This document shows, one piece after another, positions 1 through 11,502 of a stretch of DNA of 29,070 nucleotides. The notes under the pieces are model-generated. The model was not told the origin of the DNA. It worked only from the letters and a program-made list of their open reading frames with translations, and searched no databases. Within the stretch, counting starts at the first letter, position 1. Each line of letters starts with the position of its first letter. The stretch spans positions 1-29,070 of the forward strand of contig CAKMXJ010000036.1 of assembly GCA_928724745.1 (NCBI GenBank). The letters are read 5' to 3'. The DNA is from Anthracocystis setariae. Lineage: Eukaryota; Basidiomycota; Ustilaginomycetes; Ustilaginales; Ustilaginaceae. Position numbers and translations under genes: made by a program.

Positions 1-817
1 AAGTTGGCTCCTAGTTGTACATAGTTCCTGAAGTTCCCATGGACTTCATCTGAGGTTTTTTCATCCTCTTCACTGAGGGTTTTTCCTCACAATGAAGTAC
101 CTTTCTCTTGATCAAAGTACCTTCCAACCTAGACTGAAGTAGGATCAACCTCTGTGTACTGGCCCTTGAACCCTAGGCAGACCTCATCCAAGTATGTTGG
201 AACCTGAGTCCAACCAGGTTCAAGTACATTGCCAAGCCATGGTTGAAGATAGGCAGAAGTACCATCAACCTCAGTTGAAGTGCAGGAAGTACACTTCAAG
301 CTTGGTCCAAACTATACTTGGCACATAGTTCAACTTCAAGTCACCCAGCTTGGACTCCATCAGAACACCCCAGCCAGCATCCAAGTTTGAACTTCAACCC
401 TCAGTCAACCTACCCTCAACTTCGGTCAACCCCACCCTCAACTTCGGTCAACCCTACTTGGACCCCATCTTCATACCTGGGCTGGCCGAACTTGGACCTA
501 GGTTCAAGGTACCTTGGTGTCAACTTTGAACCCCTGTAGCACCGCAACCACTTGCAATTTCACCACTCTTGACATGTGTACAGCCTCTCTATAGGTTCTT
601 CTAGCTGTTCCACACATTGCCTCCACCCTTCCTCCTCTTTGAAAAAAAAATATTCTTCCCCGACAGAATCCTGGCGGCAACTTCAAATGCCCGTATCTCC
701 GTCAATAGAGTAAACTTTACCCCAAACTCAACGGCTTCTGGCAGCTCTCAGCCAGCTCTACAACTCTCATTAGTACAGATTTGATGGTGACTTTGATGGG
801 TCCAAGGGAACACCTTG
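1..817 (+). mobile_element. Telomere-array module A (3' trailer only, cut by window edge)
   Basis: This segment is nearly identical to the non-coding trailer of the three following modules (offsets 1166, 2367 and 3658 bp, set by aligning the shared GTTGGCTCC start). It holds many AAGTACC-like words, a 22-bp tandem duplication near 413-456 (two copies of a CCCTCAACTTCGGTCAA block) and an A-run near 640. It ends in CCTTG directly before telomere repeats. No OTU coding part is visible because the window begins inside the trailer. Short open frames here (for example 318-539) recur in every copy, overlap other frames and look like chance ORFs. Confidence 0.8.
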
Positions 818-841
818 TAACCCTAACCCTAACCCTAACCC
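818..841 (+). repeat. Interstitial telomeric repeat 1, (TAACCC)4
   Basis: Four perfect TAACCC units lie between module A and module B. The C-rich strand reads left to right, as expected at a left chromosome end. The junction on the left is CCTTG|TAACCC. Confidence 0.97.
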
Positions 842-1143
842 TTCACCACAACATGGTGGAAGCCATCCTGGCTACCAAGGAAGTACCCAAACACCCCTTC
901 ATATCCAAGGGGGAACCTCTGACAGTCAGAACCTACCTTTCTAAGATGGCTAGGCATGGTACATGGGGGGATGATGCTACTTTAAGTGCAGCAGTCTCCA
1001 TCTTCAAGCTCAGTTTGGTGATCATCAACCCAGACAGATCCTACTTTGAGGTCAACAAAGTACCTGTTCCTACCCAGTGGCATGCCCTCTACTACACAGG
1101 CAACCACTACGAGCTTGTACTCAAGTTCAACTCAGAGGCATAG
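842..1143 (+). pseudogene. OTU protease fragment, lacks the catalytic Cys half
   Basis: The frame encodes the C-terminal portion of an OTU-family domain. It includes a RTYLSKMARHGTWGDD segment typical of the centre of the fold and the NHYELVL segment carrying the catalytic His codon at 1105-1107. The DGNC cysteine segment is missing because the module starts downstream of it. The G-run here has six Gs, which keeps the frame open. An ATG at 784 in the preceding module makes a 119-codon chimeric frame that reads through the telomere repeats as alternating Thr and Leu. Without the Cys it cannot be an active protease. Confidence 0.75.
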
Positions 1144-1160
1144 GTACTTGGACCGAAGTT

Positions 1161-1189
1161 TGTATATAGTTGGCTCCTAGTTGTACATA
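1161..1189 (+). promoter_or_regulatory. Two PUF-type UGUANAUA sites after the OTU stop codon (module B)
   Basis: TGTATATA at 1161-1168 and TGTACATA at 1182-1189 lie within 50 nt of the stop codon. Both match the UGUANAUA recognition element of Pumilio/PUF RNA-binding proteins. The same pair occurs in module C (2362-2369, 2383-2390) and module D (3653-3660, 3674-3681), and one survives at 16-23 in module A. Function is inferred from the motif only. Confidence 0.4.
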
Positions 1190-1982
1190 GTTCCTGAAGT
1201 TCCCATGGACTTCATCTGAGGTTTTTTCATCCTCTTCACTGAGGGTTTTTCCTCACAATGAAGTACCTTTCTCTTGATCAAAGTACCTTCCAACCTAGAC
1301 TGAAGTAGGATCAACCTCTGTGTACTGGCCCTTGAACCCTAGGCAGACCTCATCCAAGTATGTTGGAACCTGAGTCCAACCAGGTTCAAGTACATTGCCA
1401 AGCCATGGTTGAAGATAGGCAGAAGTACCATCAACCTCAGTTGAAGTGCAGGAAGTACACTTCAAGCTTGGTCCAAACTATACTTGGCACATAGTTCAAC
1501 TTCAAGTCACCCAGCTTGGACTCCATCAGAACACCCCAGCCAGCATCCAAGTTTGAACTTCAACCCTCAGTCAACCTACCCTCAACTTCGGTCAACCCCA
1601 CCCTCAACTTCGGTCAACCCTACTTGGACCCCATCTTCATACCTGGGCTGGCCGAACTTGGACCTAGGTTCAAGGTACCTTGGTGTCAACTTTGAACCCC
1701 TGTAGCACCGCAACCACTTGCAATTTCACCACTCTTGACATGTGTACAGCCTCTCTATAGGTTCTTCTAGCTGTTCCACACATTGCCTCCACCCTTCCTC
1801 CTCTTTGAAAAAAAATATTCTTCCCCGACAGAATCCTGGCGGCAACTTCAAATGCCCGTATCTCCGTCAATAGAGTAAACTTTACCCCAAACTCAACGGC
1901 TTCTGGCAGCTCTCAGCCAGCTCTACAACTCTCATTAGTACAGATTTGATGGTGACTTTGATGGGTCCAAGGGAACACCTTG

Positions 1983-2015
1983 TAACCCTAACCCCCTTAA
2001 CCCTAAACCTAACCC
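1983..2015 (+). repeat. Interstitial telomeric repeat 2 (degenerate)
   Basis: A 33-bp run of TAACCC-like units with some irregular ones lies between modules B and C. The left junction is CCTTG|TAACCC, identical to repeat 1. The right junction falls at a different place in the element (before TTCAGAGGTGG). Confidence 0.93.
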
Positions 2016-2344
2016 TTCAGAGGTGGTAAAGTACCTTGAACTTCACCACAACATGGTGGAAGCCATCCTGGCTACCAAGGAAGTACCCAAACACCCCTTC
2101 ATATCCAAGGGGGAACCTCTGACAGTCAGAACCTACCTTTCTAAGATGGCTAGGCATGGTACATGGGGGGGATGATGCTACTTTAAGTGCAGCAGTCTCC
2201 ATCTTCAAGCTCAGTTTGGTGATCATCAACCCAGACAGATCCTACTTTGAGGTCAACAAAGTACCTGTTCCTACCCAGTGGCATGCCCTCTACTACACAG
2301 GCAACCACTACGAGCTTGTACTCAAGTTCAACTCAGAGGCATAG
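2016..2344 (+). pseudogene. OTU protease fragment with frameshift
   Basis: This is the C-terminal OTU portion, starting about 25 nt further upstream than in module B but still without the DGNC cysteine segment. A run of seven Gs at 2165-2171 replaces the six Gs of module B and breaks the frame in the middle of the HGTWGDD segment. The downstream part, with the NHYEL histidine segment and TAG at 2342-2344, is in another frame. Confidence 0.7.
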
Positions 2345-3183
2345 GTACTTGGACCGAAGTTTGTATATAGTTGGCTCCTAGTTGTACATAGTTCCTGAAG
2401 TTCCCATGGACTTCATCTGAGGTTTTTTCATCCTCTTCACTGAGGGTTTTTCCTCACAATGAAGTACCTTTCTCTTGATCAAAGTACCTTCCAACCTAGA
2501 CTGAAGTAGGATCAACCTCTGTGTACTGGCCCTTGAACCCTAGGCAGACCTCATCCAAGTATGTTGGAACCTGAGTCCAACCAGGTTCAAGTACATTGCC
2601 AAGCCATGGTTGAAGATAGGCAGAAGTACCATCAACCTCAGTTGAAGTGCAAGAAGTACACTTCAAGCTTGGTCCAAACTATACTTGGCACATAGTTCAA
2701 CTTCAAGTCACCCAGCTTGGACTCCATCAGAACACCCCAGCCAGCATCCAAGTTTGAACTTCAACCCTCAGTCAACCTACCCTCAACTTCGGTCAACCCC
2801 ACCCTCAACCCGGTCAACCCTACTTGGACCCCATCTTCATACCTGGGCTGGCCGAACTTGGACCTAGGTTCAAGGTACCTTGGTGTCAACTTTGAACCCC
2901 TGTAGCACCGCAACCACTTGCAATTTCACCACTCTTGACATGTGTACAGCCTCTCTATAGGTTCTTCTAGCTGTTCCACACATTGCCTCCACCCTTCCTC
3001 CTCTTTGAAAAAAAAATATTCTTCCCCGACAGAATCCTGGCGGCAACTTCAAATGCCCGTATCTCCGTCAATAGAGTAAACTTTACCCCAAACTCAACGG
3101 CTTCTGGCAGCTCTCAGCCAGCTCTACAACTCTCATTAGTACAGATTTGATGGTGACTTTGATGGGTCCAAGGGAACACCTTG
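2016..3183 (+). mobile_element. Telomere-array module C (5'-truncated OTU element)
   Basis: Same structure as module B, with slightly more of the OTU coding region retained at its left end. The trailer is nearly identical and ends CCTTG at 3183. In the trailer the second half of the 22-bp duplication differs (CCCTCAACCCGG), so this copy can be told apart from A and B. Confidence 0.75.
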
Positions 3184-3190
3184 TAACCCT
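3184..3190 (+). repeat. Interstitial telomeric repeat 3, single TAACCCT unit
   Basis: Only one telomere unit separates module C from module D, giving CCTTG-TAACCCT-CAAGG. It sits at the same left junction as the longer repeats, which is why I read it as a minimal telomeric junction. It could also be native internal sequence of the element. Confidence 0.55.
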
Positions 3191-3635
3191 CAAGGTACAG
3201 ACAACTACAGGATCACATCTGGCTACATCAAGGGAGATGGCAACTGCCAGTTCAGGGTACTATCCAAGATCATCTATGGTACCCAAAGTAGCCATCAAAG
3301 GGTACGTTCAGAGGTGGTAAAGTACCTTGAACTTCACCACAACATGGTGGAAGCCATCCTGGCTACCAAGGAAGTACCCAAACACCCCTTCATATCCAAG
3401 GGGGAACCTCTGACAGTCAGAACCTACCTTTCTAAGATGGCTAGGCATGGTACATGGGGGGGATGATGCTACTTTAAGTGCAGCAGTCTCCATCTTCAAG
3501 CTCAGTTTGGTGATCATCAACCCAGACAGATCCTACTTTGAGGTCAACAAAGTACCTGTTCCTACCCAGTGGCATGCCCTCTACTACACAGGCAACCACT
3601 ACGAGCTTGTACTCAAGTTCAACTCAGAGGCATAG
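3191..3635 (+). pseudogene. OTU-type cysteine protease domain, 5' truncated and frameshifted
   Basis: An open frame from the module start encodes the GDGNCQFR segment of OTU cysteine proteases, with the Cys codon at 3245-3247, and continues to the HGTWG segment. A run of seven Gs at 3456-3462 then shifts the frame. The remaining part with the catalytic His (codon 3597-3599) ends at TAG 3633-3635. No in-frame start codon precedes it within the module. It is a diverged relative of the OTU domain encoded at 6358-8721, so it is the C-terminal end of a second lineage of the same kind of protein. Confidence 0.72.
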
Positions 3636-4474
3636 GTACTTGGACCGAAGTTTGTATATAGTTGGCTCCTAGTTGTACATAGTTCCTGAAGTTCCCATGG
3701 ACTTCATCTGAGGTTTTTTCATCCTCTTCACTGAGGGTTTTTCCTCACAATGAAGTACCTTTCTCTTGATCAAAGTACCTTCCAACCTAGACTGAAGTAG
3801 GATCAACCTCTGTGTACTGGCCCTTGAACCCTAGGCAGACCTCATCCAAGTATGTTGGAACCTGAGTCCAACCAGGTTCAAGTACATTGCCAAGCCATGG
3901 TTGAAGATAGGCAGAAGTACCATCAACCTCAGTTGAAGTGCAGGAAGTACACTTCAAGCTTGGTCCAAACTATACTTGGCACATAGTTCAACTTCAAGTC
4001 ACCCAGCTTGGACTCCATCAGAACACCCCAGCCAGCATCCAAGTTTGAACTTCAACCCTCAGTCAACCTACCCTCAACTTCGGTCAACCCCACCCTCAAC
4101 TCGGTCAACCCTACTTGGACCCCATCTTCATACCTGGGCTGGCCGAACTTGGACCTAGGTTCAAGGTACCTTGGTGTCAACTTTGAACCCCTGTAGCACC
4201 GCAACCACTTGCAATTTCACCACTCTTGACATGTGTACAGCCTCTCTATAGGTTCTTCTAGCTGTTCCACACATTGCCTCCACCCTTCCTCCTCTTTGAA
4301 AAAAAAATATTCTTCCCCGACAGAATCCTGGCGGCAACTTCAAATGCCCGTATCTCCGTCAATAGAGTAAACTTTACCCCAAACTCAACGGCTTCTGGCA
4401 GCTCTCAGCCAGCTCTACAACTCTCATTAGTACAGATTTGATGGTGACTTTGATGGGTCCAAGGGAACACCTTG
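3191..4474 (+). mobile_element. Telomere-array module D (longest of the near-identical copies)
   Basis: This module retains the most coding sequence of the near-identical set, including the OTU cysteine segment, followed by the shared trailer ending CCTTG at 4474. The following bases are TAAC and then unrelated sequence, so the next junction holds less than one telomere unit. One base is missing in the second half of the 22-bp trailer duplication. Confidence 0.72.
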
Positions 4475-4478
4475 TAAC

Positions 4479-4729
4479 TCCTACGCAGGGAACATCACTG
4501 TATAGCACCCCTCTACACATCCCATTAAAGCGTCAGCACCATCAGAGGTGATCAAAAACTTTTTTTTCTTCCCCAAGAGAATCTGGCTGCGGACCTTTGA
4601 CGGTCTGTATCTCGGTGACCACGGAACATGGTTCCGTCAGACTTTGCATACATATACCTCAGACCTATATCTACAACTCCCATTAGTACAGATTCTTGAT
4701 CAAAGTGCTCTCCGGCGGGGAGGACCTTG
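4479..4729 (+). mobile_element. Diverged telomere-array module E
   Basis: The first ~70 bp are unlike the other modules. From about 4548 the sequence follows the end of the module A-D trailer in diverged form: a T/A-run, CTTCCCC, an AGAATC-TGGC block, a CGTATCTCCGT-like block (here CTGTATCTCGGTGA) and CATTAGTACAGATT. It ends in GGACCTTG against telomere repeats. It therefore appears to be an older, strongly 5'-truncated relative with the same 3' boundary. Confidence 0.55.
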
Positions 4730-4746
4730 TAACCCTAACCCTAACC
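4730..4746 (+). repeat. Interstitial telomeric repeat 4
   Basis: TAACCCTAACCCTAACC between module E and module F, with the same CCTTG|TAACCC left junction. Confidence 0.93.
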
Positions 4747-4839
4747 GCTTCAAAAAGCTCGCTTGCCAAGGCACGCAGCTACCATCCTCATCTTCCAAAC
4801 ACGCCGTTCTCAGTGCTCTTTGGCGACACCGGATGTGTT

Positions 4840-5036
4840 TGATCAACGTCATCAACACAATCCGACACCGCAAAAAAGCGAGGATTTTGGACGTTCTTGA
4901 ACATGTTAGATTGCGTTGAGTAACACGTTCTGCATTGCAAAAAAAGCGGAAATTTTCCGACATTTCCAGATTTGTTAGATTGTGCCAATTAACACAATCT
5001 GTCATTGCAAAAAAGCGAAAAAAATTTTCCGACACG
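4840..5036 (+). repeat. Tandem repeat, about 68-bp period, three imperfect units
   Basis: Each unit has a CAAAAAAGCG core followed by a TTTT block, then GAC, then TTAGATTG and a TAACAC...TCTG end. The cores start near 4871, 4937 and 5006. The last unit is shortened. Confidence 0.65.
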
Positions 5037-5037
5037 G

Positions 5038-5100
5038 AAACTCGGGAAATTACCTCGGGGAGCTCGGAATGCGTCGGGAAGCTCGGGAAGCTCGGGATCC
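5038..5100 (+). repeat. Short tandem repeat of AGCTCGGGA
   Basis: CTCGGGA/AGCTCGGGA words recur five or six times in 63 bp with small variations. This is a simple minisatellite within module F. Confidence 0.75.
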
Positions 5101-5137
5101 TCCATGAGTCAAACTTGACTCCCCATCTGCGGCCCGT

Positions 5138-5429
5138 ACGCTGCAGCTACCGCACCAAGCTTTTGCATGCCAAAGTGTACCCATATAGTGCACACACTGA
5201 CCCCAAGCAGCCCCCAAAGTTTGGCTTGCTCACCGTCGCCACCAGCCAACATGTACGCGCAGACGTACATTTACGTCAACTACGCCCGCTACGGTGCAGC
5301 CACTGTGCCTGGTGTTTGTGTTCCCAAGTCTGTCTATATACTGCACAAACTGACATAAAAAAACCCCCAGGGTTTTGCTTCCTCATCGACGCCCCCAGCC
5401 AAAGTGTACGCGTGGACCTACGTTTACGT
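5138..5429 (+). repeat. Direct duplication of about 152 bp, in one open frame
   Basis: Two imperfect copies run from TACGCTGCAGC to TACGT and from TACGGTGCAGC to TACGT. Both contain TATA-GTGCACA/CTGCACA, CCCCCA-AGTTT/GGGTTT and GTACGCG. The period is close to 153 bp, so a + strand frame (4935-5474) stays open through both and encodes two related ~51-residue segments, each with LRPxRCS and an SQ-VR-D segment. I do not recognise a protein family, and the frame has no other coding support. Confidence 0.6.
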
Positions 5430-5546
5430 AATTTTGCAAAAAAGTATGCAAACAATTTCGCCAAAATTTTCTGATCACAATCTACAAGATGAGAGCTTTC
5501 CAACGGTACCAAATGATCACCATAACTCACAAAGGGTCCCCCTATG

Positions 5547-5566
5547 TAACCCTAACCCTAACCCTA
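5547..5566 (+). repeat. Interstitial telomeric repeat 5
   Basis: Three TAACCC units plus TA, running into an A-rich tract. The left junction is CTATG|TAACCC. Confidence 0.93.
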
Positions 5567-5597
5567 AAAAAAAATAACTCACAAGGGAAACCGAGTG
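5567..5597 (+). mobile_element. Minimal module G, about 30 bp between two telomere runs
   Basis: An A-run followed by TAACTCACAAGGG and GAGTG is enclosed by telomere repeats on both sides. The TAACTCACAAGGG word matches the end of module F (ATAACTCACAAAGGG), so this is best read as an extreme 5' truncation of an F-type module. Confidence 0.5.
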
Positions 5598-5612
5598 TAA
5601 CCCTAACCCTAA
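5598..5612 (+). repeat. Interstitial telomeric repeat 6
   Basis: TAACCCTAACCCTAA between module G and module H. Confidence 0.93.
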
Positions 5613-6230
5613 GAACCTGAGTCCAACCAGGTTCAAGTACATTGCCAAGCCATGGTTGAAGATAGGCAGAAGTACCATCAACCTCGGCTGAAGTGCAGGA
5701 AGTACACTTCAAGCTCGATCCAAACTATACTTGGCACATAGTTCAACTTCAAGTCACCCAGCTTGGACTCCATCAGAACACCCCAGCCAGCATCCAAGTT
5801 TGAACTTCAACCCTCAGTCAACCTACCCTCAACTTCGGTCAACCCCACCCTGAACTTTGGTCAACCCTACTTGGACCCCATCTTCAAACCTGGGTTGACC
5901 GAACTTGGACCTAGGTTCAAGGTACCTTGGTGTCAACTTTGAACCCCTGCAGCACCGCAACCACTTGCAATTTCACCACTCTTAACATATGTACAGCCTC
6001 TCTATAGGTTCTTCTAGCTGTTCCACACATTGCCTCCACCCTTCCTCTGCTTTGAAAAAAAAATATTCTTCCCGAGAGAATCCTGGCTGGCAACTTCAAA
6101 TGCCCGTATCTCCGTCAATAGGTTAAACTTTAACCCAAACTCAACGGCTTCTGGCAGCTCTCAGCCAGCTCTACAACTCTCATTAGTACAGATTTGATGA
6201 TGAATTTCATGGTCGCTGAGGAGAGCCTTG
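5613..6230 (+). mobile_element. Telomere-array module H (diverged trailer copy)
   Basis: Sequence equivalent to about 200-817 of module A, with scattered substitutions and a different last 30 bp. It starts immediately after telomere repeats at GAACCTGAGTCC and ends GAGAGCCTTG at 6230. It has no OTU coding part, so the truncation lies inside the trailer. It is clearly older than modules A-D, which are almost identical to one another. Confidence 0.75.
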
Positions 6231-6253
6231 TAACCCTAACCCTAACCTAACCC
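6231..6253 (+). repeat. Interstitial telomeric repeat 7
   Basis: TAACCC units with one shortened unit, directly upstream of the complete OTU module. The left junction is CCTTG|TAACCC. Confidence 0.95.
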
Positions 6254-6357
6254 AAACGACCGACCAACATCAACTCACTTTGCGCCAGACACAGCACAGA
6301 CGCCCAAGCAATCCTCTCTTCTTTTCAGCACCTCTCTATTCCCTTGAGAGCGTCACA

Positions 6358-8721
6358 ATGGACCATCCATTGCCCATTAGGATGGACCATCAAGTCACCA
6401 AAGGATTCATGGCTCCACGTGACCTCGATGCGTGGAACATCAGCCTGTACCCCAAAGACTTACTCCAGGTGTTCAAGCCAATGTCACCTGTTCAGTTGGT
6501 CAGTCATGCTCCCACCATCAAGGACCATCCCACATTCAAGGACTGGGTCAGCGCTGGCCAGTGCATCTTCAACATCAAGATCCACCCAAAGTTCAAGATC
6601 CCGCTCCTCAACGACCTCATCTCTGCCGACATCATCATGCTGGGCTCCGACTATCCTGAAGCTCTGATCCGGGGCAATCAGGTGATCACCTGCAGTGTCT
6701 TCATCAACTGTCTGCAGAAGGCGGGTGTTGATACTGTCAGAGTCCAAGGCTATGGCATGAAGATGTGGGTCAACTACCCGTATGACGGTCCAGACCTTGG
6801 CAACCCTCAACACCCAATGTCGGACCTCAATACCTTTGACCTGGCATGTAACTGGCCCAGCCAGAACATCTGGCTTGTGACCAACCGACATGACAGCATC
6901 CCTGGCCTCCAGCAGTATCCCATCCTCACACCGGTGGGCCAGGGCTTTGGCGGTGTCCAGATGCCGGTCCAGTACGGTGGTGAGACATATCAGGTGAAGA
7001 TCTATCCACGCATCGTCCACCAGATCAAGGCACAGGCTGGCAACCACATGCTCAACAAGCCAAAGTCAATCTACATCTGCAAGAAGCGGAGAGCGACCCT
7101 GCTTGGCCATCTGGCGCACATGGAGAAGCTATCAAGCCAACAGCTTGGTGGCATACGGGTTGAGGCTACAATCACCAGCCCAACCCTCAGCCTTGCTGTA
7201 CGCAACATCACGGCTACTCCTGTGCTCAATATAACCCAGTACATGACGCCACGGGTTGAGGCAATGGAGCCGTACAAGATACGGAGCATCAAGATCAACA
7301 AGGAGGACTACATCAAGAACCTGCGTGATCTGCTGGCCAAAGCAGATGAGCAACAGGTGTTCTCTGGCAATAACAGCCGCTCTCCTCACCCTGACTCCCA
7401 GCAGATCATCATTGACCTCTTCAATGCGCTGGGTTGGCATACTGGACGCTTTGAGCCAACACGCTGGGATCATCCAGCTGCCTGGTGGCTCCACTCTCAA
7501 GGAGAAGCACCAGTGATCACCAGCAATGATGTGGAGATGGAAACACAGGCTGAGGAGCGCCGTCAGCCATCCAAGGCTCTCCTGAAGCGCCGTCTGCGCA
7601 CCATGGATGCTCTGCGTAGCTTCTTTGGCCAGATCAAAGGTCAGACACCGTGTCCCAAGTGTCAGAAGCCAGCGCCAGCACTGTACAACCAAGGTGGGCG
7701 CCGTCAGTTCCGCCTGCAGTGCACTGGCTGCAAGGCGCGCCTCAATCAAGAGCAGGCTCGAGAGTACTTTGGCCAGCTGCTTGATCAAGGCCGTCTGACG
7801 GTAGACCTGGGTCCAGAGCCAGTGCCAGAGCCAGAGGCAGCAGCAATGGAGGCAGTCACTACAGAGGAGGAGGATGTCAACATGCCTGACCTTGGCAGCA
7901 ACTCTGATTCCTCAGCTGACCAGGCTCCTGTCCATCCTCTGCATGGTCCACGCCGTCAGAGCAACCGTCTGCGTAGGCGTCTCTCTCCTGCAGCAGCAGC
8001 AGCACCAACAGTGGAGCTGCACACGCATGGCACAGATGCGGTGGTGCTCCTCCCAGCAGCGTCGCCAGCCCCTGCTGTGGTTAGGAGCAGCAGCGCAGAG
8101 ACCAGCGCTAGCATTCAGGCCATCTTGGATGAGCTTGATGCAGAGCTGGTCTCCAGCCCAGACCGCAGATGCAGGGAGACACCCAACCCCTTTGTGGCTG
8201 AGCTGGTGGTATCACCAGCAGTCACCCTGCCCTCCCGTCAGCCACTGCAGAGCAAGCCCAGCCTCCATGCTGTTGACAGAGTCACTGTACTGGCTGCTAC
8301 GCTTTGCAACCTGTATGGTCTGAAGGTCAGCAACATCATTGGCAGGGATGGCAACTGCATGTTCAGGGCCATGGCATACCACCTGACAGGCAACCAAGAC
8401 CAGCATATGATGGTCAGGACAAAAGCAATCCACTGGCTGCAGCGGAATCCTGACATCCTGCTGGCATTTGCGGCCCAGGGCGATGGGCATCTCTCCGCTG
8501 CCACATACCTGGCTAACATGGCCAAGCCAGGAACATGGGGTGACGAGATCATGCTCATGGCCATTGCGCAGGCATTCAGCATCTCAATCATGGTCTACTC
8601 TGGCATAGACCCTCAGACCGGTGACAGCCATGGCACCGTCTACCCTCACAATGCAGAGGGACCCCACTATGGCCTGTTTCACCTGGCCAAGTCCCAGCAT
8701 TATGAGCTCCTGTTCCCCTGA
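6358..8721 (+). CDS. Zinc-ribbon-like and OTU-domain protein of the telomeric element, 787 aa
   Basis: The start ATG at 6358 has A at -3 and G at +4; the frame is open upstream to 6280 but without another ATG. Residues 1 to about 380 form a long region I cannot assign. A CxxC...CxxC motif follows (C432, C435, C455, C458), resembling a small zinc-binding module. An acidic, Pro/Glu-rich linker (about 481-520) and a basic RRQSNRLRRR stretch, a possible nuclear signal, come next. The C-terminus (about 645-787) is an OTU-type cysteine protease domain with DGNC (catalytic C667), a central GTWGDE segment and a terminal QHYELLF carrying H781. OTU enzymes usually cleave ubiquitin or ubiquitin-like chains; here the substrate is unknown. 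Both catalytic residues are present and the frame is intact, which suggests recent function. The truncated modules to the left encode a diverged version of the same C-terminus. No reverse transcriptase YxDD motif is seen. Confidence 0.85.
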   Translation: MDHPLPIRMDHQVTKGFMAPRDLDAWNISLYPKDLLQVFKPMSPVQLVSHAPTIKDHPTFKDWVSAGQCIFNIKIHPKFKIPLLNDLISADIIMLGSDYPEALIRGNQVITCSVFINCLQKAGVDTVRVQGYGMKMWVNYPYDGPDLGNPQHPMSDLNTFDLACNWPSQNIWLVTNRHDSIPGLQQYPILTPVGQGFGGVQMPVQYGGETYQVKIYPRIVHQIKAQAGNHMLNKPKSIYICKKRRATLLGHLAHMEKLSSQQLGGIRVEATITSPTLSLAVRNITATPVLNITQYMTPRVEAMEPYKIRSIKINKEDYIKNLRDLLAKADEQQVFSGNNSRSPHPDSQQIIIDLFNALGWHTGRFEPTRWDHPAAWWLHSQGEAPVITSNDVEMETQAEERRQPSKALLKRRLRTMDALRSFFGQIKGQTPCPKCQKPAPALYNQGGRRQFRLQCTGCKARLNQEQAREYFGQLLDQGRLTVDLGPEPVPEPEAAAMEAVTTEEEDVNMPDLGSNSDSSADQAPVHPLHGPRRQSNRLRRRLSPAAAAAPTVELHTHGTDAVVLLPAASPAPAVVRSSSAETSASIQAILDELDAELVSSPDRRCRETPNPFVAELVVSPAVTLPSRQPLQSKPSLHAVDRVTVLAATLCNLYGLKVSNIIGRDGNCMFRAMAYHLTGNQDQHMMVRTKAIHWLQRNPDILLAFAAQGDGHLSAATYLANMAKPGTWGDEIMLMAIAQAFSISIMVYSGIDPQTGDSHGTVYPHNAEGPHYGLFHLAKSQHYELLFP

Positions 8722-9667
8722 TCTGTTCCAAGTTCCAAGTTCTGTGTTCCGTATGTAAATAGTTGTGGGGTCTAGGGCACTTTTTTTTTTCCCACTGGGT
8801 TTTTCCCCTAGACCATGTAAATAGTCGCTCCAATACATAATAGTATACACGTCTACACCTTCCTGTCTGTGGTGTTTGGTGGCCCTACCGGTGACTGACC
8901 AACAGAGGCAGACAGACCTGCAAAGTGGTTGAATCATCTTTAGAAGGTGTGAGAGCCTCACCGCACATTAAACAGCAGTGTCTCAATATACAAGTTCAGG
9001 TCGGCCCTACCTGACCAGGGTAGGGCTAGGGCTAGGTTCAGGTCCCAAAAAATTTTAGCCCTAGGGCCTGGAAGACAACTTGCTTAGATAGTGTCTGATA
9101 TGGCTCCTGCATGCCAGAGAACCCCAGCGCACATCAAAAAATGGCCACTTATTATGCCAGAAGAGTCCAACCCTACGGGGGGTAGGGCCTGGCCGACACG
9201 TTTCACCCTACCCAGCTGCAACCGCAACCGGTACAGCATTGACCTTGCAGATACAGCCATTTGGCACCATTTGACATGTATGTCATTAAGAGATGCAGTC
9301 CATCCAAGCCACTTTTTTTGGTCCACAAAATGCTCCCATGGTCCCCCCTTTGGATTTGGCCGTTTTTCAACTTCTGCTGCCCCTACACCCTCAGTATGCA
9401 TTCCCCATCCCTGCTTTCTTGCATACATTCCTATTTCACCATTACGCACCTTCCTGCGGCATCAGATCCCTCAAAATCCAAAAAAAGTTCTCAGACCCTA
9501 CCTCGACCCGGGGTCCCGACCCTACTTTCGGTGACCCGCCCTGACCTGTTTTTATAGTCAACTTGCGTAGGGCCACTTAATGACTTCAGCCAAACTCACC
9601 TAGCACTATCCAGTAATGCACAGAGAAGGGGGTGTTATGTCTTCAGCCCTACCACAAGATCCCCTTG
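8722..9667 (+). other. 3' trailer of the complete OTU element
   Basis: No credible gene lies in this 946-bp stretch. It holds two TGTAAATA sites flanking a hairpin, many CCCTAC/GTAGGG words from about 9001 onward, and a TAGGGC-type variant run near 9021-9036. It ends in CCTTG at telomere repeat 8. Open frames such as 9091-9534 have no recognisable protein similarity. Confidence 0.6.
8754..8823 (+). promoter_or_regulatory. Pair of UGUAAAUA (PUF-type) sites around a hairpin
   Basis: TGTAAATA occurs at 8754-8761 and again at 8816-8823, each inside an 11-bp ATGTAAATAGT direct repeat, 32 and 94 nt after the stop codon. Between them GGTCTAGGG (8769-8777) pairs perfectly with CCCTAGACC (8806-8814), with a T10 run in the loop. 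UGUANAUA is the known PUF-protein element. The arrangement matches the pair found just after the OTU stop in modules B-D. Confidence 0.45.
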
Positions 9668-9679
9668 TAACCCTAACCC
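9668..9679 (+). repeat. Interstitial telomeric repeat 8, (TAACCC)2
   Basis: Two TAACCC units join the end of the complete OTU element to the interior of a retrotransposon gag gene. This is the most internal perfect telomere run in the window. Confidence 0.9.
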
Positions 9680-9816: not shown

Positions 9817-10029
9817 TGTCATAACCAAGTTAAGGTTAAGGTTCTGACGTGCAGTGAGCTTGAGCTAAATGAGTGATCGATGTCATTTCGATGGAGGCAG
9901 TGTGAGTGAGACGAGATTTACAGGGAAAGCGGAACCAGCGAAAATAGGAGTCAGCCCGATACGGCGGATCGGGCTTGGATCGGCGATCTGGGAAGCGTAA
10001 GCGTTATAGGGGAGGAACGCCTCATGACA
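9817..10029 (-). repeat. 3' LTR of the gag-only element
   Basis: 213 bp, TGTCAT...ATGACA, identical to the copy at 11291-11502 except for one extra G near 10010. It is the 3' LTR because the element reads on the - strand. Confidence 0.93.
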
Positions 10030-10043
10030 TCCCCCCGCAAAGA
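10030..10043 (-). other. Candidate polypurine tract
   Basis: On the - strand a G-rich purine run (GCGGGGGGA) directly abuts the 3' LTR, the position required for plus-strand priming in LTR elements. Confidence 0.55.
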
Positions 10044-10156
10044 AAGAGAGCACTCGGACGAGACAAGGAGTGCGAAAAGGCCGGAAATCGGAAAGACGGA
10101 TCTCGGAGACGTGGAAATCGGGAAAAAAGGAACTCGGAAGAGCGGAAACCGGGAAA

Positions 10157-11149
10157 TTAAGGAGGAGGTTTGTGCACAGACCTCCAAGGTTCCTGCAAAG
10201 CACGGAGTTCTCGCAGGAAACCGGAAATCGAGGAAACTTCCTGGTACCGTGCGAGAAGCTTGAGTGAATCGGGAAGTCCAAGCCAGATATCATGGATCGT
10301 GTCCCGATCGTCACGTGAGTGGTACGCGGCGCGTAACAGTGACAATTTCGCGTAAAAGTAGCACGTGACATCCTCCGTGTGAGGCTGCCACTTCCGCAGT
10401 TCGGCCGTCCGACGGGCGACCGAGATATCCGTTCCGAAAGCGTCGTTGAGCATAATTCGCCAGATCGGCCAAGATCGGCTGAGATCTCGCCGATCACGAT
10501 CGGTGATCGAGCTGTACCAGTGCTGAGCCGTCTTTGTGAGGCAGAGAGGCAGCTGACTAAGCATTACAGCGACGAAGGAAGGCTCGTGATTCTGTGAATC
10601 CAGCAGAGACTCGACTCGTGCGAGAAAGAACTGGACGGCGTCGCTGGAACCGTCAAAGCGACCGATGTCGTCCGGAGACAGGCGGATTCGGTGGTGGGAC
10701 GGCTTCTGATTGGTGGGGCTGACAGCTGCGGAAGCCGGAAGGTTAGAGTTTTCGGCGTCATTAGAGTTTGCAGCGTTCTTGGACAGCCTGGAAACGTCAG
10801 AAGTAAGGTTTTCGGCTTTGACGTTGGCGTTCTTGGGCGCAGAAGCTTCATTTGACGTCACTAGAAGCTTCAGAAGCCGAGAGAGTGTGTCATTCGTGAC
10901 TTGTTGCGCAAGTTGAAGCCTGTCAAGAGACGTTGTGACAGCTTGAAGCGAGTCAGCTAGCGCATCAAAACGCTGGTTTTGCTGTTTTTGCACGTCAAGT
11001 AGCTGCGTGACGACGTCCGGGGCCGGTTCTGACAGCTGTCCAGGATCGTCTGGCATGTTGGTTTCGGAATCCGGAGGCGGAAGAACTGTTTCCGGAGGCG
11101 GAAGAACTGTTTCCGGAGGCGTAAGGCGTTGATTGCGGCTTCGGGTCAT
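10157..11149 (-). CDS. Gag protein of the non-autonomous LTR element, 330 aa
   Basis: The frame starts 141 bp inside the 5' LTR and is intact. The N-terminus carries a 7-residue repeat (PPETVLP-type) encoded by a 21-bp tandem repeat near 11064-11120. A coiled region follows (QKQQNQRFDALADSLQAVTT), then a Ser/Asn-rich linker. The C-terminal half is a retroviral-type capsid domain with RFDGSSDAVQFFLARVE and a central AQHWYSSI-like segment. No CCHC zinc knuckle is present. The protein would form virus-like particles packaging element RNA. It lacks detectable similarity to the older gag it interrupts beyond the general capsid pattern. Confidence 0.85.
   Translation of the reverse strand: MTRSRNQRLTPPETVLPPPETVLPPPDSETNMPDDPGQLSEPAPDVVTQLLDVQKQQNQRFDALADSLQAVTTSLDRLQLAQQVTNDTLSRLLKLLVTSNEASAPKNANVKAENLTSDVSRLSKNAANSNDAENSNLPASAAVSPTNQKPSHHRIRLSPDDIGRFDGSSDAVQFFLARVESLLDSQNHEPSFVAVMLSQLPLCLTKTAQHWYSSITDRDRRDLSRSWPIWRIMLNDAFGTDISVARRTAELRKWQPHTEDVTCYFYAKLSLLRAAYHSRDDRDTIHDIWLGLPDSLKLLARYQEVSSISGFLRELRALQEPWRSVHKPPP
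11064..11120 (+). repeat. 21-bp tandem repeat inside gag
   Basis: GGAGGCGGAAGAACTGTTTCC is repeated with a final partial unit. It preserves the reading frame and encodes a Pro-rich heptad in the Gag N-terminus. Confidence 0.8.
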
Positions 11150-11274
11150 GTTTGGCAGCCGTCAAAAAGCGAGTTTGGTGGGCGTGGTGGGACGAAACTC
11201 TCGGAGTCCGTGTAGAACAGCTTGTGATTGGTTCCAGGAACGTGGTACAGGCTGTTGAGGTGTGTGTCGAACTC

Positions 11275-11290
11275 CGCGCTCTTGTCACCA
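11275..11290 (-). other. Candidate primer-binding site of the gag-only element
   Basis: Directly internal to the 5' LTR, the - strand starts TGGTGACAAGAGCGCG. The leading TGG complements the CCA end of a tRNA. The matching tRNA was not identified. Confidence 0.5.
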
Positions 11291-11502
11291 TGTCATAACC
11301 AAGTTAAGGTTAAGGTTCTGACGTGCAGTGAGCTTGAGCTAAATGAGTGATCGATGTCATTTCGATGGAGGCAGTGTGAGTGAGACGAGATTTACAGGGA
11401 AAGCGGAACCAGCGAAAATAGGAGTCAGCCCGATACGGCGGATCGGGCTTGGATCGGCGATCTGGGAAGCGTAAGCGTTATAGGGAGGAACGCCTCATGA
11501 CA
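11291..11502 (-). repeat. 5' LTR of the gag-only element
   Basis: 212 bp with TGTCAT...ATGACA ends. It is followed on its right by ACTTG, the second copy of the target duplication. Confidence 0.93.

Follow-up and report, generated by a model that had tools for sequence, protein, structure and literature searches.

The first ~9.7 kb (positions 1-9679) of the window, by which we mean the whole 29,070-base stretch analyzed here (C31:1-29070 of genome G000, which has 21.47 Mb in 36 contigs), is a head-to-tail array of modules that all lie in one orientation, and the anatomy of its junctions suggests that eroding chromosome tips repeatedly receive RNA copies, a process running beside telomerase. 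The best reading of the data, to which we give a probability of roughly 0.57, is RNA-templated extension of chromosome 3' ends by an enzyme acting in trans, alternating with telomerase and accompanied by recombination. According to this reading, the modules would be RNA copies added at chromosome 3' ends. An RNA with a terminus of about CUUG-UAA(CCC) would meet a G-strand 3' end, either made by telomerase (...TTA) or eroded and matching over a few bases, a reverse transcriptase (RT) supplied in trans would copy the RNA, often stopping early, and the new end would then be lengthened by telomerase or by the next RNA. Recombination at interstitial telomeric tracts would spread the arrays among chromosome ends.

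The eight TAACCC runs from which an earlier note on this DNA had argued are present at 818, 1983, 3184, 4730, 5547, 5598, 6231 and 9668, all in a single orientation; the positions are correct, but the run at 3184 is just TAACCCT (7 nt), and a TAAC junction (4 nt) at 4475 had been overlooked. The module starts at 842, 2016 and 3191 do differ as claimed, since they correspond to positions 142 (at base 841), 117 and 1 of the reference module, and the common right end was confirmed for all four F1 copies of the window, which stop at the identical base of that module. Seven modules of the window end in CTTG (817, 1982, 3183, 4474, 4729, 6230 and 9667), and two ends of one family are CTATG (5546) and GAGTG (5597), followed by TAA. 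The tracts between modules range from TAAC (4475) to a 33-nt degenerate repeat (1983-2015). The motif TAACCCTAACCC matched 10 times in the window, always on the + strand, with 0 matches expected from 100 shuffles, and an Rfam scan of the window gave 0 matches at the gathering score. The features of the array are as follows.

1..817, +, F1 module with its left side removed by the contig end and the fixed 3' end CTTG (alignment to the reference module)
818..841, +, telomeric tract (TAACCC)4
842..1982, +, F1 module with its outer (5') cut within the OTU coding region (covers the reference from position 142, at base 841, to its end)
1983..2015, +, degenerate telomeric tract
2016..3183, +, F1 module with another outer cut (reference position 117 to the end)
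3184..3190, +, telomeric tract TAACCCT, 7 nt (identical junction at L034 2025)
3191..4474, +, F1 module, the longest copy of the window (starts at reference position 1)
4475..4478, +, tract TAAC, 4 nt
4479..4729, +, F6 module (251 nt) with a box A tail (identical tail at L034 3570)
4730..4746, +, telomeric tract
4747..5546, +, F3 module with the tail CTATG/TAACCC, a 5'-truncated relative of the X element
5547..5567, +, telomeric tract
5568..5597, +, 30-nt mini-module with an F3-like tail (likeness by eye) and the end GAGTG
5598..5612, +, telomeric tract
5613..6230, +, F1-type module in which the last part of the tail differs (GAGGAGAGCCTTG)
6231..6253, +, telomeric tract
6254..9667, +, F5 module, an OTU-protein gene plus ~0.95 kb of 3' sequence
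6358..8721, +, ORF of 787 aa from the first ATG, with an OTU-like cysteine protease domain at residues 664-754
9668..9679, +, telomeric tract that closes the array on its inner side, with other sequence beyond

Separately, a small LTR-bounded element was observed at window 9817-11502, with a minus-strand gag-like ORF, for which no pol-like Pfam match was obtained, between two repeats of 213 and 212 bp (TGTCAT...ATGACA, ends set by eye) that are one inserted base apart; a repeat search recovered 195 bp at 100%. The element shows an apparent ACTTG target duplication (by eye) and sits at the edge of another gag-like ORF.

The fixed tails were followed in a set of 290,146 bases, mostly contig-end DNA, drawn from the window, 10 kb at the start of each of C1-C20 (C13 excepted) and chosen stretches close to other ends; it includes only a minority of the right ends and of the C21-C36 left ends. 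Perfect runs of at least two repeats in L009-L028 were all on the + strand, as expected for left ends. A 583-base F1 query had 50 matches in the genome, and a 295-base query spanning the F1 end had 42, of which 39 continue beyond the module end into the tract; the match ends 27 bases early in the other three, two of which were examined and have a different last part that likewise ends in CTTG/TAA. With the count restricted to cores that have 90 nt of following sequence, four tail cores reached a TG/TAA end in 125 of 125 copies of the 290-kb set: at 35-36 nt for class A tails (81 sites), 25-26 nt for F4 (28 sites), 14 nt for F5 (8 sites) and 15-17 nt for F3 (8 sites). The 125 tails precede 80 distinct downstream contexts (18-mers past the telomeric run), an upper limit on the number of independent targets because single-base variants were counted separately. 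There are several dissimilar tail classes rather than the single element family that the earlier note had inferred. Copies elsewhere in the DNA examined keep fixed right ends instead of stopping at random positions, and left and right junctions are not identical everywhere, although some copies do share both ends; neither of these two patterns, which had been named as counting against the earlier reading, was thus found.

The class A tails carry a motif, box A (ATTAGTACAGATT), that occurs 200 times in 21.5 Mb, in 198 cases followed by N31-32 CTTGTAA, whereas a reversed control pattern had 0 matches in the whole genome. Including near variants, 83 of 83 box A sites in the 290-kb set reach CTTG/TAA at 35 or 36 nt, and the exact motif had no site on the opposite strand of that set. 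Among the box A positions listed (100 of 200 overall, 65 of 65 in the TTTG subset and 100 of 120 in the TTTCA subset), + sites occupy the low contig coordinates and - sites the high ones, and the site farthest from an end, considering contigs of known length and leaving out C22, C23, C26 and C27, is C10:764060, ~66 kb in. This last tail is possibly an internalized relic. Nine class A tails gave no consensus RNA structure and no consensus pairs, and no occurrence of TTAGTACAGATT was found in the literature searched. Box A was also matched in five viral contigs, in all of them within the same phage gene as judged by eye, and this was taken as coincidence.

To the fixed inner ends correspond variable outer ends. 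Sixteen tail seeds yielded 138 junctions, which bound 113 intervals when array duplicates are kept, the smallest modules having 13, 13, 17, 21, 30 and 35 nt and the largest reaching kilobases; the telomeric run was at most 6 nt at 36 of the 81 class A sites, and the tracts between modules were often below one repeat. Sixty-eight distinct outer junctions could be compared with a longer parent copy; 12 of them were uninformative (the parent itself was telomeric or a junction copy), leaving 56, i.e. 13 with a gap, partly because the parent copy had diverged, and 43 with an overlap of 0 nt (10 junctions), 1 nt (9), 2 nt (11), 3 nt (10), 4 nt (2) or 5 nt (1). Thus, 2-5 nt are shared with telomeric sequence at 24 of the 43 overlap junctions, compared with a mean of 6.9 and a maximum of 15 in 2000 simulated runs in which breakpoints were random on the same DNA and the junction was able to match on both sides. 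At three junctions (L015 525, L013 7117 and L033rc 5049) TAA(C) was already present in the target, so that no telomeric base need have been added there, and at some others exactly TAA precedes non-telomeric DNA; from these junctions we infer an RNA that would end in about CUUGUAA. Erosion followed by telomerase healing also yields variable outer ends and microhomology, and these features are therefore no stand-alone sign of early RT stops. The 13 gaps among the 56 informative junctions likewise speak against the RNA reading.

Duplication and exchange between ends clearly shape the arrays as well. Window 1168-6406 and C32:7-5250, the latter reaching the limit of the compared C32 stretch, share 99.8% identity, so that much of the window array is also present at a second contig end; C6:76-5591 and C8:229-5748 are 99.9% identical over 5.5 kb and diverge within 5 nt of the F5 3' end; and uniform arrays were found, e.g. 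at L026 and L015. These shared blocks and uniform arrays suggest two layers, in which attachment sets the fixed ends and exchange spreads the arrays. As to spacing, C3:1800806-1810683 holds 23 box A sites at ~446 bp (two intervals are near 434 and 500), and L026 1-10000 (C18) is built of short box A modules in which intervals of ~340-380 and 807 bp alternate.

The same blocks and uniform arrays are what would be expected if recombination were the only process, with eroded ends, healed by a few telomeric bases, invading interstitial TAACCC and copying distal DNA by break-induced replication; the fixed inner ends would then be the borders of old tracts and the outer ends healed breaks. The microhomology at the outer junctions fits such healing, and MoTeR ends behave in this way, their truncation being attributed to erosion and healing in the accessible part of PMC7367193. 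We nevertheless regard this explanation as rather unlikely, because it leaves unexplained the single TG/TAA rule across dissimilar tails, the distance of 35/36 nt that holds at 83 of 83 box A sites and the presence of one tail ahead of many different targets.

RNA-templated extension raises the question of the enzyme. The earlier note had proposed reverse transcription primed at the chromosome end, and this is still the best reading of fixed and variable ends, but the module proteins scanned with Pfam have no RT of their own, giving OTU or nothing above the cut-off; a full-length relative with an RT and the same 3' end, also envisaged there, was absent among them. The priming proposal is only partly supported, given the missing RT, the distance of the non-LTR RTs, the antisense gene of F3/X (see below) and the duplication and exchange between ends. 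The enzyme would accordingly be telomerase itself or derive from LTR elements, unseen sequence or another source, and no donor was identified among the RTs found in the genome. Of 206 RVT_1 candidates, 150 were scored, and among these 13 matches of 750-771 nt, taken as non-LTR type by their length, lie inside chromosomes, the nearest about 33-34 kb from an end (C12; contigs of known length). Partial RVT_1 matches lie near ends (e.g. C1:628493 and C21:10994), and the RTs that were typed near contig ends, at several of them, are of the LTR kind. The dispersed non-LTR RTs could be a source in trans. As a telomeric partner they were rejected, since three loci (L041-L043, two of them covered by an RVT_1-only scan) are inside chromosomes and none carries box A among the positions listed. 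A copia RT was also considered as donor, because RVT_2 ORFs at the C6 and C8 ends resembled an autonomous element with an F5 tail, and was dropped when inspection by eye showed a copia-type LTR element inserted within the F5 module (L014 76-5591 and L016 229-5748), RVT_2 having 81 matches genome-wide.

Telomerase itself might be the copying enzyme, if several dissimilar RNA families had converged on a 3' end that mimics the template border of telomerase RNA (CUUG-UAACCC, template plus 5' border, preceded in one class by box A at 35/36 nt) and the cell's telomerase wrote these RNAs onto eroded ends as alternative templates. The TERT gene is present as one copy (a 1355-aa frame with a Telomerase_RBD match at C1:163274, E 1.1e-42), and the RTs typed near ends being LTR-type fits the idea. 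We consider it improbable, since some modules reach kilobases and no kilobase products are known for telomerase, and since the LTR-type RTs near ends or the dispersed non-LTR RTs could serve instead. In its favor, the junctions on the G strand come after ...TTA, with which copying of a 5'-UAACCCUAA template finishes; this template is the one proposed for Ustilaginales telomerase RNA in the part of PMC10035886 consulted. The 1355-aa TERT frame compares with 1371 aa for the TERT of U. maydis according to the accessible part of PMC4192592. Two further frames were observed near ends: on the 68-kb contig C9, a BRCT frame with a weak Rap1-Myb match (both just below the cut-off) that neighbors a RecQ-type helicase (L017 2156-5764 and 6445-8817), and a 1207-aa DEAD-box/ResIII helicase frame, perhaps a telomere-linked helicase, on the 32-kb contig C16 (L024 5478-9098).

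A DNA route, in which the telomere receives a DNA fragment with a single fixed end, either rolling-circle (Helitron-like) or ligated, would account for one fixed and one variable end and for the T after the module end, but it is very improbable, because the module proteins scanned have no Rep or helicase domain and no Pfam match to the Helitron RepHel protein, and because the modules end in CTTG, TATG or GAGTG rather than following the Helitron 3' end rule, CTRR. Simple ligation also predicts another phase if A. setariae resembles U. maydis, whose C strands mostly start with 5'-AACCCT and with 5'-TAACCC in 2.5% (PMC6167521, in part).

What the modules do encode is an OTU-type protein. The 787-aa protein of the window matches PF02338 with 45.7 bits (cut-off 23.3) and contains DGNC and QHYE, which we take to be marks of OTU proteins. 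Seven of the nine members of set A1 match OTU at E up to 1; of eight further frames scanned, five also match and three, distant frames that read toward the telomere, do not. A genome search gave 63 matching stretches, and database searches returned 8 and then 10 relatives for the window protein and 2 for the X protein. The proteins differ by module, with 664 and 661 aa in full-length F1 relatives (C12 and C15) and 786-787 aa in F5, and close gene copies have dN/dS of 0.17-0.28 in four comparisons, each on 5-15 synonymous differences. In some modules the OTU protein probably assists the RNA that encodes it. The predicted fold of the OTU protein has a mean pLDDT of 55, and structure searches with this model returned OTU and weak Zn-ribbon-like rows and no assignment for the core (155-380), a lack that shows nothing about fold novelty. 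In viral contigs, 126 pattern stretches of the family were found and none was confirmed.

In F1 and F5 the gene runs toward the fixed end. The OTU-family gene of the X element (L013 1364-7116, F3 tail), however, is antisense to this end, and many more distant members of the 63 stretches also point away from it, as judged by strand and position. No other result speaks as strongly against a simple mRNA-3'-end model as the antisense gene of X, and a non-systematic look noticed neither intron loss nor a poly(A) tail as a sign of an RNA intermediate. The X frame has a weak eIF-5-type match below the cut-off, and the three distant antisense frames and the L014 frame have no Pfam match. Frames of 1125-1181 aa at L030 2722-6264, L014 6605-9979 and L018 5020-8532 read toward the telomere and show an OTU-family-like core with ~30% identity to the window protein, no Pfam match and, in L030, C2H2-like motifs seen by eye.

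The modules work like MoTeR and HeT-A and yet miss a defining feature of each. In Drosophila, HeT-A of the HeT-A/TART system is an RT-less element copied onto chromosome ends with a fixed 3' and a variable 5' end, and its protein is Gag. The modules share these ends, and their scanned proteins likewise have no RT, but the Drosophila system lacks telomerase, whereas here TERT is present, telomeric repeats separate the modules and the protein is OTU-type. Endonuclease-deficient Penelope-like elements (Athena, Coprina) are attached to telomeres, in basidiomycetes too. They are linked to Agaricus chromosome ends in the part of PMC7473861 consulted, and no such RT was seen here with the general RVT_1 profile, the only RT profile bearing on them.

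Closest in layout are MoTeR and FoTeR, CRE-like telomeric non-LTR elements that, like the modules, form same-orientation arrays with telomere repeats between copies and have a fixed 3' end with 5' truncation. In Magnaporthe, MoTeR1 and MoTeR2 form head-to-tail arrays with tracts from half a repeat upward, MoTeR2 is a partner without RT, and very short 5'-truncated relics occur (PMC7367193, in part); FoTeR of Fusarium has TAACCC after its 3' end, and truncated copies outnumber full ones (PMC12857005, in part). Since MoTeR shares the layout, short tracts, RT-less partner, relics and healing, the general principle was already known. These elements, however, encode an RT with a restriction-like endonuclease, neither of which was seen in the module proteins scanned; the modules further differ in having several dissimilar tail classes that obey a single end rule, a gene for an OTU protein and box A. 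No equivalent modules were found in the portions consulted of the literature on telomeric elements of fungi, basidiomycetes and smuts. OTU modules without RT, a multi-class end rule and box A were likewise not found in the accessible parts of PMC7367193, PMC12857005, PMC8381367 (a review of fungal telomeres), PMC6167521 (U. maydis STELA), PMC10035886 (TER), PMC10532341 (ter1 transcriptome), PMC7473861 and PMC4466345, the last of which, in the part consulted, describes subtelomeric helicases in the Sporisorium scitamineum genome.

RNA-templated extension in trans would here operate in a fungus that has telomerase and whose attachment junctions can in many cases be resolved to the base, those of 13-nt modules included. 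Junctions of this resolution make testable the enzyme that writes RNA onto ends, the requirement at the RNA end and the idea of RT-less elements living off telomerase, and box A, 31-32 nt and CTTGTAA provide a genome signature for finding such systems.
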